From assembly GCF_000317045.1 (NCBI RefSeq), contig NC_019703.1:3728934-3792933 (forward strand): DNA of 64,000 nucleotides. Direction: 5' to 3'. The stretch is from Geitlerinema sp. PCC 7407 (lineage in GTDB: Bacteria > Cyanobacteriota > Cyanobacteriia > PCC-7407). Under the pieces are notes generated by a model. That model did no database searches. It was not told the origin of the DNA and saw only the letters and a list, made by a program, of their open reading frames with translations. Below are positions 152 to 52,422 of this stretch, in pieces. Within the stretch, counting starts at the first letter, position 1. Each line of letters starts with the position of its first letter. The position numbers and the translations under genes are program-made.

Positions 152-173
152 CCCCGGCCTAAGAGGCCTGAGG
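152..173. repeat. Right-end hairpin of the IS605-type element
   Basis: GGCCT (156-160) pairs with AGGCC (164-168) around a 3-base loop, with weaker flanking C/G pairs. The tnpB stop codon (159-161) lies inside the hairpin. This is where the TnpA-recognised right end and the 3' part of the TnpB guide RNA (omega RNA) are expected in this family. Confidence 0.6.
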
Positions 174-1397
174 TTTCTGTCGCTTCTTCGCCCCAAGTTG
201 CCGCATACTTCCGCACGCGGTAGAGCTTGACGACTCTGCGACTGAAGAGGCAAGTTCCTTACCCCTTGCCCAAGCCAGATTGACTTGGGCGGCATTAACA
301 TCTCGGTCCTCAACATGATTGCAGTGAGGATTGGCGCAAACATGCACCCGGTCAGACAAGGTCTTGGGGGTCAGTTCCCAGCACTTTACGCAGCGCTGAG
401 AGGGCTTTAGCTGCTGAGTGGGAGACTCGACATAGAATCCCCCGGCTTCAGCCAGCTTGTAGTCCAGGAACTGACCAATCATGCCAAAACCCACGGACAA
501 AATAGAGCGGTTAAGCCCTGCTTTTTGACGGGTCTTGGACTTGCCCTTGCGGGTCATGTTTTTGACGTTCAGTTTTTCACCGGCCACTAGGCTATTACGG
601 CTCACTATGTGGCTGGTGACTTGGTGAATCCAGTTCTCGCGCTGTCGGGCAACTTTGCGCTGTAGCTTCGAGACTTTTTGACGCTCACGCGTCCATCGGC
701 GAGAGGCTTTGATGCGCTTCGTTCGGTTGGGAGCGCGCTTGCGTCTGAGTTTCTTTGAGGCTTGCTTGACTTGGATGTCCCCTTGCCGGATGAACTCAGG
801 TTTGCTGATCTGCTCACCCGTGGATAGGGTGATGGCTTCTTTGCACCCCAGATCAATGCCAACAGAACCTTCTCCTGTAGACCGGGCTGGCTCACACTGC
901 ACGGTGATGGAGGCATACCATTTGCCGTGTCGCCAGAAGATCGTGCAGGTGGTGGGTTTGCCCCAGGTCCGAGCTTGTCCCCGCATCTTCAGGCTGCCAA
1001 GGTTGCTCAGGTTGAGAGAACCATGCAATCCACTAGTTTCGGCTTTCCAACCGGACTTGCAGGGATAGGTCCAGCCTGCATAGCGGCGGGACGCTTTGAA
1101 GCGGGGATATCCACCCAGTTTTTTGAAGAATCTCTGAAAGGCAAGGTCGACTCGCTTGAGGGTGGCTTGGAGAGCATGGGAGCCTAGCTCTTTGTACTCT
1201 GGCCACACTTCTTTGAAGGCGGGTAGGCTGTTTTGCTGCTCAAAGTAGTCAACGGCGTGGTTGAACTTCTGATACTGGGTTTTGCGGTTGGCTAACGCGG
1301 CGTTGTACAACCCACAGTGCAGTTTCCGCCAGTAGTGGAGTGTGGACTCCTGCTGACGGGTGGGATAAAGCCGGTAGGTGATACGACGTGTTAGCAT
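159..1397 (-). CDS. tnpB: RNA-guided endonuclease TnpB, IS605 type
   Basis: A 412-residue TnpB/OrfB. The RuvC-like residues are visible: Asp in GIDLGCKEAI, Glu in GEKLNVKNMT and Asp in the C-terminal DRDVNAAQ. A four-ligand zinc-binding segment (CVKC, then CANPHC) precedes the last Asp. TnpB proteins are transposon-encoded nucleases guided by an RNA from the element's right end. The N-terminal region (YRLYPTRQQE) is typical. It is divergent from tnpA and belongs to a different subfamily from the two tnpB copies near 48 and 51 kb. No frameshift or stop is visible, so it looks functional. Confidence 0.92.
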   Translation of the reverse strand: MLTRRITYRLYPTRQQESTLHYWRKLHCGLYNAALANRKTQYQKFNHAVDYFEQQNSLPAFKEVWPEYKELGSHALQATLKRVDLAFQRFFKKLGGYPRFKASRRYAGWTYPCKSGWKAETSGLHGSLNLSNLGSLKMRGQARTWGKPTTCTIFWRHGKWYASITVQCEPARSTGEGSVGIDLGCKEAITLSTGEQISKPEFIRQGDIQVKQASKKLRRKRAPNRTKRIKASRRWTRERQKVSKLQRKVARQRENWIHQVTSHIVSRNSLVAGEKLNVKNMTRKGKSKTRQKAGLNRSILSVGFGMIGQFLDYKLAEAGGFYVESPTQQLKPSQRCVKCWELTPKTLSDRVHVCANPHCNHVEDRDVNAAQVNLAWARGKELASSVAESSSSTACGSMRQLGAKKRQKPQAS

Positions 1398-1425
1398 TCT
1401 CTCAGCATAGCTTGCCTATAGGTTG

Positions 1426-1836
1426 ATGCAACCCAGCCACAGAAAAGGATCTCACTCTGTTTTTTCTATTTACCTACACCTGGTTTTTGTGACCAAATAC
1501 CGGCAAAAGGTGATTGATGACTCAATGCTGCAAACAATGACTGAGGTGTTTCAGCGAGTTTGTGTTGCTAACAAAAGCAAGGTGATTGAGATCAATGGGG
1601 AGCCTGACCATGTCCATCTTTTGCTTGACTTGCATCCAGATAACAACATTTCTCAGTTGGTTGCGAGCCTGAAGGGGGCGTCTAGTCGCATTGTCAGAAA
1701 ACAGCACTCGGAGCGGTTGGCAAGGTTTTACACAAAGCCTGTTTTTTGGTCGAGTTCTTACTATGTTTCTTCTGCGGGGGGCGCGCCGTTGGAGCGAATC
1801 AAGCAGTACATTGATGGGCAACCGGGGGTTAATTGA
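1426..1836 (+). CDS. tnpA: IS200-type Y1 transposase TnpA
   Basis: About 136 residues, the usual length of the Y1 transposase of IS200/IS605. The HUH metal motif is HVH near residues 63-65, and the catalytic Tyr lies in IKQYIDGQ near residue 129. The enzyme cuts and rejoins single-stranded ends. The ATG at 1426 is preferred over the TTG just before it. It is divergent from tnpB by 28 bp, so the promoters probably overlap. Confidence 0.92.
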   Translation: MQPSHRKGSHSVFSIYLHLVFVTKYRQKVIDDSMLQTMTEVFQRVCVANKSKVIEINGEPDHVHLLLDLHPDNNISQLVASLKGASSRIVRKQHSERLARFYTKPVFWSSSYYVSSAGGAPLERIKQYIDGQPGVN

Positions 1837-47699: not shown

Positions 47700-47955
47700 A
47701 GCTCGATTTCCTTTCGATGTGCTGACAAGAATGGAGACTTTCTGAGGTCCATAATGCCACAAAACCCCGGTTTCCCGAGCGGAGTTTAGATCTTATTCAC
47801 GTTTCTCTCAGAAAAGGGGAATCGCAGATCTCCCCTGGGGCGGATCGGAGAAGGCAGGGGTAGCGGGGGATGGAGAGGTTCCGGCTGGATGATTAGTCAG
47901 CGTAATGCATTTGTTGACATCCTCACCGGGGTGAACCCACGGTGATTCCCAAACC

Positions 47956-49128
47956 TCACGATTTGGGTTTCTGCTTCCTAGCACCTGCCTTCCGGGACTT
48001 GCTCCCCTCCGGTCTTACGGTCGCTCCACAGACTGACACGGTGTGTCCCACCGCCAAGATGTTCTTTGCCGCGTTCACATCCCGATCATGGTGACTGCCA
48101 CACTTCGGACAATCCCACTCTCGAATGCTCAGCGGCAATCGCTCTACGACATGGCCGCAGTTCCCACAGCGCTTAGAGCTGGGAAACCAGCGATCGATCT
48201 TCACCAACTCTCGCCCATACCACAGGGCCTTATAGTCCAGTTGGCGAATCAGCTCACCCCAGCCCGCATCGCTAATGACACGGGAAAGCTTGGGGTTCTT
48301 GACCATGTTCTTCACTGCCAGCGTCTCGACCGCGATCGTTTGATTTTCACGAATCAGTCGAGTCGTCAGCTTGTGAAGATGGTCTTTCCGAGAATTAGAA
48401 ATCTGTTGGTGAATCCGCGCTACCTTGAGTCGAGCTTTGTCTCGATTACGAGAGCCCTTTTGCTTGCGGCTCAGAGCCTTTTGGGCTCTGCGAAGTCGTC
48501 GGTAATGCCGGTCAAAGTGCTTGGGATTGGCGACCTTTTCCCCGTCACTCAGGGCGACCAAGCTGGTAATCCCAGCGTCCACCCCAATCGACTGGTTAGA
48601 AGCCTCCAGTGTGAGATTCCGAGGATCGTCAAAGCGGAGGCTGATGTACCACTGACCAGACGGGTTCAGTCGTACAGTCACCGTGGAGGGCTCAGCCCCC
48701 TCGGGAATCCGCCTGGACCATCGAATGTTCAATGGTTCTGGGCTTTTAGCCAGAAACACCTGACCCTGTTTCCATTTGAAAGCAGACTTTGTGAACTCTG
48801 CACTGCCACCATTGCGCTTCTTCTTGAAGTTCGGATAGTTTGTCCGACCGGTAAAGAAGTTAGTGAAAGCCGTTTGCAGATGTCTCAGTCCCTGCTGAAG
48901 AGGAACGCTGCTTACTTCATTGAGAAACTGGAGGTCTTCTTGCTTTTTCCACTCCGTCAGCTTCGAAGAGGTCTCGGCATAGCCGATTCTCTCTTGTCGC
49001 TCATACCAAGCTTCAGTCCGTTCTGCCAGGGCTCGGTTGTAGACCAGCCGAACACAGCCCAGTGTCCGACGCAAGAGATTCTCTTGCTCGAAGGTGGGAT
49101 AGAACCGGTAGCTGAAGGCTTTTTCCAT
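47956..49128 (-). CDS. tnpB: RNA-guided endonuclease TnpB, IS1341 type, copy 1
   Basis: 390 residues, intact. RuvC-like Asp in VDAGITSLVAL, Glu in VETLAVKNMV and Asp in HHDRDVNAAKNIL; the zinc ribbon is CGNCGHVV then CPKCGS. The N-terminus MEKAFSYRFYPTFEQE is typical. It is about 95% or more identical to the copy near 51 kb and only distantly related to the tnpB near 1 kb. The guide RNA should arise from its 3' end and the right-end hairpin. Confidence 0.92.
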   Translation of the reverse strand: MEKAFSYRFYPTFEQENLLRRTLGCVRLVYNRALAERTEAWYERQERIGYAETSSKLTEWKKQEDLQFLNEVSSVPLQQGLRHLQTAFTNFFTGRTNYPNFKKKRNGGSAEFTKSAFKWKQGQVFLAKSPEPLNIRWSRRIPEGAEPSTVTVRLNPSGQWYISLRFDDPRNLTLEASNQSIGVDAGITSLVALSDGEKVANPKHFDRHYRRLRRAQKALSRKQKGSRNRDKARLKVARIHQQISNSRKDHLHKLTTRLIRENQTIAVETLAVKNMVKNPKLSRVISDAGWGELIRQLDYKALWYGRELVKIDRWFPSSKRCGNCGHVVERLPLSIREWDCPKCGSHHDRDVNAAKNILAVGHTVSVCGATVRPEGSKSRKAGARKQKPKS

Positions 49129-49248
49129 ATCTCACGTTCTAACATTTCTGCTGTGAAACCTGCTTGTTTTAATGGCAATGTCGAGGGCATCGAGCCCCGC
49201 TCAATTGCCGCTCCTATCCCTCCCTGCCCTGAAACGGCGGGGTCTCTC

Positions 49249-49262
49249 GGAGGCTTCTGATG
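49249..49262 (+). promoter_or_regulatory. SD-like GGAGG and ATG at the end of IS copy 1
   Basis: GGAGG (49249-49253) lies six bases before ATG 49260. The frame it opens (49260-49655) is out of phase with the likely real gene starting at 49312, so here the IS-borne signal may translate a meaningless frame. Confidence 0.45.
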
Positions 49263-49311: not shown

Positions 49312-49638
49312 ATGTTTCGGTTGTTGGCCCCGATAGTGGAAGCGGTGCAGCCGTTTTTGGTGCCGATTTGCTTTGTGAGTGCCTGGCTGATTGTGATTTT
49401 AGCGGTTTGGAGTGTGTTCACGGCGACGCGGGATGGGGTGCGGCGATCGCAGCAGTTGCACCAGATTCCCTGTACGCGGTGCCAATTTTTTACGGCGGAC
49501 TATCGCCTGAAGTGTACGGTGCGGCCCCAGGCGGCGCTGACGGAAGAGGCGATCGGGTGTGGGGATTTTGTGGCGGGGGAGGATGCGATCGCGGATTTGG
49601 CGGGCGATCGCCTCGGGCCTCGAAGCCGCCGGTGGTGA
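49312..49638 (+). CDS. Small membrane protein with CxxC motif
   Basis: About 108 residues from ATG 49312. One membrane helix (FLVPICFVSAWLIVILAVWSV) is followed by a soluble tail with IPCTRCQFF, a lone Cys in LKCTVRP and IGCGDF, giving four Cys that could bind a metal. The layout occurs in cyanobacterial conserved proteins of unknown function. It lies between the two IS copies. A longer overlapping frame from 49260 is less protein-like. Confidence 0.65.
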   Translation: MFRLLAPIVEAVQPFLVPICFVSAWLIVILAVWSVFTATRDGVRRSQQLHQIPCTRCQFFTADYRLKCTVRPQAALTEEAIGCGDFVAGEDAIADLAGDRLGPRSRRW

Positions 49639-49768: not shown

Positions 49769-50008
49769 TTAGCCCTCGCCACCTTCCCCACCAGCGGCGG
49801 GAGACTCGGTTGCGGCAGGAGACTCAGTCGCAGCGGGAGACTCGGTTGCGGCAGGAGATTCCATAGCGGGAGACTCGGTTGCAGCGGGAGACTCCATAGC
49901 AGGAGACTCGGTTGCAGCGGGATCGGTGCCTTCGCCGGTGGTGCTGCAAGCGGCTAAGGGGGCGACTAAGCCCAGCGCCATCAATAGTGCAATGGATTTA
50001 GATTTCAT
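49769..50008 (-). CDS. Small lipoprotein with ESPAAT repeats
   Basis: 79 residues. Signal peptide with lipobox LAAC (Cys near residue 21), then tandem ESPAAT/ESPAME units and a Gly-Glu tail. The repeats come from an 18-base DNA repeat (about 49800-49920). Probably tethered to a membrane, with an acidic, flexible tail; no enzymatic domain. Confidence 0.75.
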   Translation of the reverse strand: MKSKSIALLMALGLVAPLAACSTTGEGTDPAATESPAMESPAATESPAMESPAATESPAATESPAATESPAAGGEGGEG

Positions 50009-50407
50009 GATGTTTCCTCACGTTAACCACACAGTTTAATCAGAGCGTCTTTCGGCGTTTTCGCGGTAAAAAACAGCATTGAGGTAAAGTCAATGCAGAG
50101 TTTTTGACAGCGCGTAACGTTTTATCTCAAGATTTGTGCTCCATGTTTACTCTAGAGCACAACTGAAAATTCGCATATTCCTACTTTGAACGAAGCGCTC
50201 ACCAGCCATTGTTGAGCGGTTTTTTGGCCAGTCTCTGGCAATGCCAGGGGCGATCGCTCATCCCACGCCGGAGCGAGTCTAGGCAAATATTGGCCTGAAA
50301 TCCCCTCTAGCGCATTGGTTATAGCGCTAGGCAGCGACGGCGATCGCCCGCCTGCACCTCTATCGAGATCCACTCCCAGCCTTCTATTTCAAGCGTCCTG
50401 AGCGACT
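50009..50407. other. Intergenic region upstream of the small lipoprotein
   Basis: Holds the lipoprotein promoter and the DNA up to the second IS copy. A minus-strand open frame at 50152-50373 has no family feature. Nothing else recognised. Confidence 0.4.
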
Positions 50408-50449
50408 TTGACATCCTCACCGGGGTAAACCCACGGTGATTCCCAAACC

Positions 50450-51622
50450 TCACAGTTTGGGTTTCTGCTTCCTAGCACCTGCCTTCCGGGACTTGCTCCC
50501 CTCCGGTCTTACGGTCGCTCCACAGACTGACACGGTGTGTCCCACCGCCAAGATGTTTTTTGCCGCGTTCACATCCCGATCATGGTGACCGCCACACTTT
50601 GGACAATCCCACTCTCGAATGCTCAGCGGCAATCGCTCTACGACATGGCCGCAGTTCCCACAGCGCTTAGAGCTAGGGAACCAGCGATCGATTTTCACCA
50701 ACGCTCGCCCATACCACAGGGCCTTATAGTCCAGTTGGCGAATCAGCTCACCCCAGCCCGCATCACTGATGACACGGGAAAGCTTGGGGTTCTTGACCAT
50801 ATTTTTTACCGCCAGCGTCTCGACCGCGATCGTTTGATTTTCACGAATCAGTCGAGTCGTCAGCTTGTGAAGATGGTCTTTTCGGGAATTGAAAATCTGC
50901 TGGTGAATCCGCGCGACCTTGAGTCGAGCTTTGTCTCGATTACAAGAGCCCTTTTGCTTGCGGCTCAGAGCCTTTTGGGCTCTGCGAAGTCGCTGATAGT
51001 GCCGGTCAAAGTGCTTGGGATTGGCGACCTTTTCCCCGTCACTCAGGGCGACCAAGCTGGTAATCCCAGCGTCCACCCCAATCGACTGGTTAGAAGGTTC
51101 CAGCTTCAAGTCTCGAGAATCATCAAAGCGGAGGCTGATGTACCACTGACCAGACGGGTTCAACCGCACAGTCACCGTCGAGGGCTCAGCCCCTTCTGGA
51201 AGCCGCCTGGACCATCGAATGTTCAATGGCTCAGCAGACTTTGCCAAGAACACATTGCCGTTCTTCCACTTGAAAGCAGACTTCGTAAACTCTGCACTGC
51301 CACCATTGCGCTTCTTCTTGAATTTCGGATAGTTTGTCCGACCGGCAAAAAAGTTCGTGAAGGCCGTTTGCAGATGTCTCAGTCCCTGCTGAAGAGGAAC
51401 GCTGCTTACTTCATTGAGAAACTGGAGGTCTTCTTATTTTTTCCACTCCGTCAGCTTCGAAGAGGTCTCGGCATAGCCGATTCTCTCTTGTCGCTCGTAC
51501 CAGGCTTCAGTCCGTTCTGCCAGGGCTCGGTTGTAGACCAGCCGAACACAGCCCAGTGTCCGACGCAAGAGATTTTCTTGCTCGAAGGTGGGATAGAACC
51601 GGTAGCTGAAGGCTTTTTCCAT
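50450..51622 (-). pseudogene. tnpB: tnpB copy 2, interrupted by a nonsense codon
   Basis: The reading frame is the same length as copy 1 (1173 bp), but codon 63 is TAA (tta at 51434-51436), where copy 1 has CAA (Gln). The 62 codons before it are identical in protein sequence to copy 1; after it the frame continues in phase to the end. A GTG at 51253 could restart a 267-residue C-terminal fragment that keeps the RuvC residues. Otherwise it differs by scattered substitutions. Confidence 0.9.
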
Positions 51623-51742
51623 GATTTACGTTCTAACATTTCTGCTGTAAAGACTACAGACTCTAATGGCAATTTCGAGGGCATCGAGCCCCGCTCAATT
51701 GCCGCTCCTATCCCTCCTCGCCCTGAAACGGCGGGGTCTCTC

Positions 51743-51756
51743 GGAGGTTTCTGATG
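51743..51756 (+). promoter_or_regulatory. IS-borne SD for the dioxygenase gene
   Basis: GGAGG (51743-51747) is six bases before ATG 51754. The GGAGG belongs to the IS end (the same bases are present in copy 1), so the element appears to supply the ribosome binding site of the following gene. Confidence 0.6.
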
Positions 51757-52422
51757 ATTTTTTCGATCGACAATCTGCTGACTCCTGAGGAAGTGCAGGC
51801 GCTCACCCACCGCCTGAGCGACGGCAAATTTATCGATGGCAAGCGCACTGCCGGCTGGCACGCTCAGCTCGTCAAAAACAATACTCAGCTCGATCGCGAA
51901 AGCGAAACCTACAAAGCCTTGGTAGAAGAGGTGCGCGAGGCGTTTCAGAGCAATTTCTTATTTCAAATTGCCGTCCAGCCCAAGAGGATTCATTCGCTGC
52001 TGTTTAGTCGCTATGAGGCGGGCATGTCCTACGGCAGCCATACCGACAATGCCCTGATGGGCACGCCCGCCCAACGCAGCGACGTTTCTATGACGCTCTT
52101 TTTGAGTCCGCCGGAGAGCTACGAAGGGGGGGAGCTAGTGATCGAGGAGATGGGGGGCGATCGCCCTTTCAAGCTGCCCGCCGGATCGGCCATTGTGTAT
52201 CCGTCGTCTACCATGCACCGCGTCGAGCCAGTCACCAGCGGCATTCGTCTAGCCGCTGTGGGGTGGACCCAGAGCCTGGTGCGCGACCCGGCCCAGCGCG
52301 AGATCCTGTTTGAGCTGGACACGGTGCGCCGGGCCGTCTTTGAGCGTCAGGGCAAAACCGTCGAATTTGACTTGCTCACCAAGAGCCACACCAATCTGCT
52401 GCGGATGTGGGCCGAGCCCTAG
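51754..52422 (+). CDS. piuC: PKHD-type Fe(II)/2-oxoglutarate dioxygenase
   Basis: 222 residues. Iron ligands H96 and D98 (YGSHTDNALM) and H155 (SSTMHRVEP), with R165 binding 2-oxoglutarate (SGIRLAAVGW). This is the PiuC/YbiX family, often iron-regulated; substrate unknown. The start lies right at the end of the adjacent IS copy, whose GGAGG acts as its SD. The stop overlaps the convergent SDR gene by 4 bp. Confidence 0.9.
   Translation: MIFSIDNLLTPEEVQALTHRLSDGKFIDGKRTAGWHAQLVKNNTQLDRESETYKALVEEVREAFQSNFLFQIAVQPKRIHSLLFSRYEAGMSYGSHTDNALMGTPAQRSDVSMTLFLSPPESYEGGELVIEEMGGDRPFKLPAGSAIVYPSSTMHRVEPVTSGIRLAAVGWTQSLVRDPAQREILFELDTVRRAVFERQGKTVEFDLLTKSHTNLLRMWAEP

Follow-up and report, generated by a model that had tools for sequence, protein, structure and literature searches.

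Insertion sequences are well known as donors of outward promoters. The tnpB-only element considered here is one that we take to be a member of the IS1341 group of the IS200/IS605 family. In the TnpB systems studied so far, the guide is taken from the sequence that flanks the element past its right end. Ends-only derivatives with a hairpin have been described as palindrome-associated transposable elements (PATE) and, in the parts of the source drawn on here, are said to be often moved by a transposase acting in trans (PMC7290912).

The window, that is the whole stretch of 64,000 nucleotides of Geitlerinema sp. PCC 7407 that was analysed, contains two copies of the element, both on the minus strand. 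Copy 2 (50408-51753, with the right end at 50408 and the left end at 51753) was delimited by alignment with copy 1 (47914-49259), which gave a length of 1346 nt for both, and it is similar also to a third copy. Each 1346-nt element carries one long gene, tnpB, and no tnpA was found inside it. In copy 1 (47956-49128) this gene is intact and encodes a protein of 390 amino acids with the Pfam domains HTH_OrfB, OrfB_IS605 and TNB. TnpB scored 386.8 bits against the NCBIfam model guided_TnpB, above the cut-off of 100, and 390.4 bits against the narrower IS200_TnpB model, under the cut-off of 425. Unlike its counterpart in copy 1, tnpB of copy 2 (50450-51622, minus strand) is broken by a single in-frame stop, as seen in the translation. 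Elsewhere in the genome (4.68 Mb, a single contig), DNA similarity revealed one more full copy, the third, and two solo ends, one left and one right. None of the five Y1 TnpA matches of the genome lies within 47914-49259 or 50408-51753; these five tnpA could mobilise the tnpB-only copies in trans. A second IS605-type element is present at positions 159-1836 of the window, with tnpB (159-1397, minus strand) and Y1 tnpA (1423-1836, plus strand) in divergent orientation. Between the two IS copies, at 49769-50008 on the minus strand, there is a lipoprotein-like frame of 79 amino acids made of ATESPA/MESPA repeats.

Copy 1 terminates in ...GGAGGCTTCTG and copy 2 in ...GGAGGTTTCTG, and in both cases ATGA follows. 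In copy 2 the end reads ...TCTCGGAGGTTTCTG and continues into ATGATTTTT, which is the beginning of piuC. A left-end subterminal hairpin, CGCC-ctgaaac-GGCG, was read by eye at 51719-51733. It is followed, on the plus strand, by a Shine-Dalgarno (SD)-like GGAGG at 51743-51747, by TTTCTG at 51748-51753 and by the ATG of piuC at 51754. The corresponding GGAGG of copy 1 was located by comparison of the copies at 49249-49253 of the plus strand, with ATGA starting at 49260. Six places in the genome match the left-end pattern; five of them have GGAGG and the sixth (L146) has GGAG. In copy 1, in the third copy and in the solo left end, GGAGG is followed by TTC and then by a G directly before ATGA. Since GGAGG lies inside the 1346-nt element and is shared by the copies and by the other left ends, it belongs to the element, as do the bases up to G 51753; the first-pass annotation had indeed assigned the GGAGG found six bases before the piuC ATG to the IS end.

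On the host side, TCAT adjoins 59 of 67 left ends (TTAT adjoins six, ACAT one, and one is blank at a contig edge), a tally that holds partly by construction because most ends were located with a motif requiring T[CT]AT. The ATGA found at 51754-51757 is the complement of TCAT, on the 3' side of which the element lies, and therefore the ATG is part of the host-owned target motif; this accounts for the coincidence of the insertion point with the piuC start codon, which the same annotation had recognised and which agrees with an element ending at 51753. To call the locus a simple case, as was done there, is however an understatement, because the ATG is part of the target motif and the arrangement recurs in other genomes, also in the form of miniatures of 47-53 nt.

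In the mechanism that we propose, a tnpB-only IS200/IS605-type element would insert 3' of TCAT and, since TCAT is ATGA on the other strand, every ATGA start codon would be a legal target. The insertion would fall exactly between the leader and the ATG and leave the coding sequence unchanged. On the strand that serves as mRNA leader after the insertion, GGAGG or GGAG would stand 5-7 nt upstream of the target ATG, and the native leader would thus give way to a complete ribosome-binding site. At piuC, the native leader, nearly devoid of SD, would apparently have been exchanged for one with a strong SD. In our judgement, the best explanation overall, and a likely one, is an insertion that exchanges the leader, spares the coding sequence and provides a site for ribosome binding. 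It is directly supported by the boundaries derived from the copies, by the ownership of GGAGG, by the recurrence at start codons and by one clean empty site, that of a tldD miniature and not that of piuC.

As regards the genome that contains the window, four of the six left-end matches are followed by an ORF of at least 200 amino acids that begins with that ATG. The solo left end (L140/L004, G000:C1:3288740-3288814), 88% identical, immediately precedes the start of a gene with a CHASE2 domain and is apparently an IS end kept as a leader after the loss of the remaining element. The GGAGG-ATG of copy 1 opens a frame of 131 amino acids without a Pfam or NCBIfam match. Copy 1 was considered as a second start-codon case and set aside, since this family match is absent and a frame at 49312, also without a Pfam match, appeared likelier by eye. 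Copy 1 is probably not before a true start, and the third full copy is not at a true start either.

The recurrence at start codons was analysed with two sets of left ends. The first set was anchored on tnpB. A protein scan with TnpB gave 125 loci, from which the best 80 were taken; 73 were inspected for the left end, which was located in 63 (11 by eye and the rest by motif), and in 60 of these the flank was at least 600 nt long. An interior insertion (L051) was left out because of its short flank. Among these best 80 of 125 loci, ATGA opens an ORF of at least 100 amino acids at 17 of the 60 ends, as compared to 258 of 1960 ATGA sites in the flanks (13.2%; p = 0.0015, which like all the recurrence p-values given here is optimistic, because the sets were gathered differently and the ends are related and not phylogenetically independent). 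When an in-frame stop within 30 codons upstream was also required, the flank sites were 98 of 1960 (5.0%). Pfam families were found in 15 of the 17 start-codon ORFs, with the domain beginning within the first 20 residues in 11 of the 17. These families include the DNA polymerase III beta subunit, DNA_pol3_delta2 (three loci), a histidyl-tRNA-synthetase-family protein, a heavy-metal-type ATPase, a pyruvate-flavodoxin-oxidoreductase-like protein and an ABC-3 permease.

It was also observed that replication genes recur among the start-codon insertions (L041, L059, L061, L103 and L153). Genes with DNA_pol3_delta2 appear three times, and the left ends of L059 and L061 differ in type although the genes are similar; dnaN was struck twice, in two different genomes.

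The second set consisted of SD-bearing left ends. A search of 388 genomes of the class with the pattern TCATCNNNNNNCTCCGAGAGACCC, one mismatch being allowed, gave 28 places in 21 genomes. The reversed control gave one place; it does not have the SD-plus-ATGA layout and so does not measure chance matches at native starts, which a rough calculation puts at about one or fewer. An ORF of at least 100 amino acids comes next at 18 of the 28 places, copy 1 being among these and probably spurious. Six places (L120, L123, L130, L131, L133 and L134) were dropped for want of a hairpin, right end or tnpB that was clear by eye; long ORFs are present at four of them. Two of the dropped places, L123 and L131, were CPP1-like genes that matched the pattern and were rejected as IS cases on these grounds. 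They come from genomes of two different families and share the leader motif CTCTCGGAGG before ATGAGCGATCA, with no hairpin seen; this motif is either a conserved native leader or a very old IS end.

Among the 22 SD-bearing ends with independent evidence of an IS, judged by eye, 13 are at gene starts (L119, L122, L125, L126, L127, L132, L135, L137, L139, L140, L142, L144 and L146), which compared to the 13.2% of flank sites gives p = 5e-7. One of them, L144, is the piuC case of the window, and without the three full copies of this genome the count is 12 of 19. The genes include tatC, tldD and a response regulator, and 11 of the 13 have Pfam families. When only the places with similarity to the TnpB of this element were considered, six of 10 were at gene starts. 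The ltrA gene (L127) was tried as an empty-site comparison and rejected: in two relatives that lack the element the start is at the same residue, and their leaders could not be aligned by eye.

Miniature elements were searched for by joining the left-end motif to GATGTCAA, again in the 388 genomes and with a reversed control. Seven places were found in six of the 388 genomes, and none in the control. The miniatures are 47-53 nt long, and in them GGAG or GGAGG stands 5-7 nt upstream of the target ATG. Three of the seven stand before gene starts (p = 0.053), namely those of a Uma2 protein (L148), of TldD/PmbA (L152, which is the same place as L139) and of DnaN (L153); the other four open frames of 4-29 codons, which are not gene starts. 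Y1 TnpA is present in four of the six genomes that carry miniatures.

The tldD gene was compared in 10 other genomes of the genus, two of which gave no usable leader (L180 is at a contig edge and the match in G208 is broken). The miniature is missing in the remaining eight, whose leaders align with that of the carrier up to the start codon. For example, the leader of one congener reads GTAGCACGCTGCC followed by ATG, and the carrier has GCTAGCACGCAGCG, then 47 nt, then ATG. By eye, no GGAG-type motif was found in the last 15 nt of the native tldD leaders. This result indicates that the tldD miniature is a clean insertion at a start codon, without target duplication. The dnaN gene was also considered as an empty site and is weaker than tldD, because its congeners own a GGAG and, in the nearest of them (L161), the leader has by eye the look of a decayed copy.

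Genes such as dnaN and that of the DNA polymerase III delta' subunit are usually essential. These findings suggest a route by which a transposon may enter genes of this kind without killing the host, that is by aiming at the start codon and bringing a ribosome-binding site.

A credible alternative, which in our estimate comes rather close to an even chance, is that tolerance alone shapes the distribution. Insertion would be random with respect to TCAT sites, those at start codons would survive as the frame is unbroken, and GGAGG would be DNA needed for transposition, whose position is coincidental. This alternative agrees with the behaviour of ends without SD, 10 of 48 of which are at starts. 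In fact, starts should make up roughly a quarter of the ATGA sites at which an insertion can be tolerated, a value calculated from approximately 5% of start-like ATGA sites against 48 of 300 window ATGA sites outside ORFs (approximately 16%), and 10 of 48 is near it. Moreover, nine of the 22 SD-bearing ends are away from gene starts despite having the same motif. On the other hand, the 13 of 22 SD-bearing ends at starts are less easily reconciled with it (p = 6e-5 against an assumed 20% and 5e-4 against 24%), and the SD-bearing start cases include solo ends and miniatures, from which the remaining element is gone.

The weight carried by the SD-like motif itself deserves consideration. Among the tnpB-anchored ends, seven of the 12 that pair at -6 kcal/mol or better are at starts, as compared to the 10 of 48 others (Fisher p = 0.027; p = 0.035 and 0.099 with the other two cut-offs). 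When SD strength was compared by rank between start and non-start ends in these same 60, no difference was observed (p = 0.27). Pooling with the 22 ends of the pattern search gave 20 of 34 SD-bearing ends at starts versus the 10 of 48 without SD (Fisher p = 0.0009). With the pooled set limited to ends that still have tnpB sequence, through the addition of 10 tnpB-bearing places, the figures were 13 of 22 versus 10 of 48 (p = 0.0025). A search of 145 genomes with a non-SD left-end pattern gave six places; no ORF of at least 100 amino acids follows at any of them, and they are too few to weigh. Tolerance alone could account for the ends without SD and accounts less well for the SD-bearing ones; these may be in excess at start codons because an insertion there can be tolerated when it brings an SD.

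A further step, which we put forward tentatively and with less than even confidence, is that a lineage of left ends has evolved to double as a translation-initiation region. TCAT would place it at ATGA and GGAG(G) would keep or raise expression. The miniatures would then be mobile ribosome-binding sites, as at dnaN and tldD, the full elements would act in the same way at piuC, and solo ends would be kept as leaders. Gene expression would then be rewired in a distinct manner, through a mobile translation signal whose position is fixed to the single base by the target motif.

The leader-replacing insertion that we favour has to be weighed at piuC itself. This gene (51754-52422, plus strand), identified by protein-family match and start alignment, encodes a PKHD-type Fe(II)/2OG dioxygenase of 222 amino acids. 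Residues 1-221 of the product align with NCBIfam NF003974 (305 bits, cut-off 143). Assuming that the insertion was clean, the native leader was probably displaced to 50388-50407 of the plus strand, now beyond the right end of the element, and ends in ...CCTGAGCGACT; the empty site at piuC is likewise probable on this assumption. If the guide is read from beyond the right end, the TnpB guide of such a copy would correspond to the native leader of the host gene. Upstream of the displaced leader, at 50076-50096, there is an inverted repeat, GCATTGAGGTAAAGTCAATGC, which is terminator-like and might also be an operator.

A match to piuC was found in 26 of 39 genomes, this genome being counted among the 39. 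Leaders were read at 19 loci, after leaving out ten weak or partial matches and the own locus of this genome. The start codon is common to all 19 aligned loci (ATG, with GTG in two). Identity to these relatives in piuC is 42-63%, and none is close enough to show an empty site. None of the 19 leaders has GGAGG in the last 20 nt, and four of them have the weaker GGAG, GAGG or AGGA. The observation that the first-pass annotation had named as contrary to its claim, an IS-free relative with the same GGAGG, was therefore not encountered among these 19 leaders, at this degree of identity. With ACCUCCUU as the assumed anti-SD, the IS-derived leader of piuC pairs at -10.2 kcal/mol with a spacing of 6 nt, the presumed native leader at -1.9 kcal/mol and those of the 19 relatives at -6.5 to +2.6 kcal/mol. 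In a comparison of 38 ORFs of the window, each measured at the first ATG (median -2.1), piuC has the strongest pairing; seven of them are at -6 or lower and two at -9 or lower.

It might be argued that GGAGG is not used at all, piuC being translated without the help of an SD or not being expressed, and that the insertion is neutral or damaging. The predicted fold of 100 nt around the piuC start gives some room to this explanation, since the GGAGG bases are unpaired with a probability of only 0.02-0.17 and would be largely hidden. The same holds for the absence of SD from most native piuC leaders and for the search for sigma-70-like promoters in 50000-51800, which found none (shuffled sequences gave a mean of 0.5). 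The native promoter of piuC is probably beyond 1.35 kb of antisense tnpB. However, piuC is still an intact, full-length ORF, and the strength of pairing and the spacing of the SD are those reported above; we regard disuse of GGAGG as unlikely. In the orientation of the gene, both window copies (50408-50413), the third copy and all seven miniatures begin with TTGACA, a perfect -35 hexamer; this right-end sequence was considered as a -35 box and rejected, as no matching -10 was seen by eye.

If leader replacement took place as proposed, ribosomes would use GGAGG at piuC, and transcription of piuC would run through the IS. The first-pass annotation had gone further and stated that the IS supplies the ribosome site on which piuC translation now depends. 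The SD-like motif in the IS end stands, whereas the dependence of translation on it may be so, judging from the sequence. That the piuC leader natively had GGAGG and resembles the IS end by chance is extremely improbable, given that GGAGG lies in a 1346-nt stretch that the two copies have in common and is seen again at the remaining left ends of the genome, and no leader of the 19 relatives has it.

A search by title and beginning of abstract, with most subscription papers outside its range, found no description of start-codon targeting combined with SD donation. The piuC case is one of a recurrent class, in which an IS200/IS605-type element is found at start codons with an SD-like end; the SD may be functional, and the end may be of adaptive origin. 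The element resembles the IS200/IS605 family and its IS1341 group in its TnpB domains, in having no internal tnpA, in the subterminal hairpin, in the lack of target duplication and in a fixed tetranucleotide at the left end. It differs from the IS1341 group in two respects: start codons are overlapped by its target, TCAT, and an SD-like motif is present on the outward strand of its left end. The miniatures are similar to PATE, as far as the consulted parts of that description go, in being short and in containing only the left-end and right-end palindromic parts. Within the same limits, they differ from PATE in their length of only 47-53 nt, in the GGAG or GGAGG placed 5-7 nt upstream of the target ATG and in the location of three of the seven at gene starts. 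Finally, as in promoter-supplying insertion sequences, the end of the element would give an expression signal to the neighbouring gene; unlike in those, the donated signal would here be translational and positioned by the target motif.
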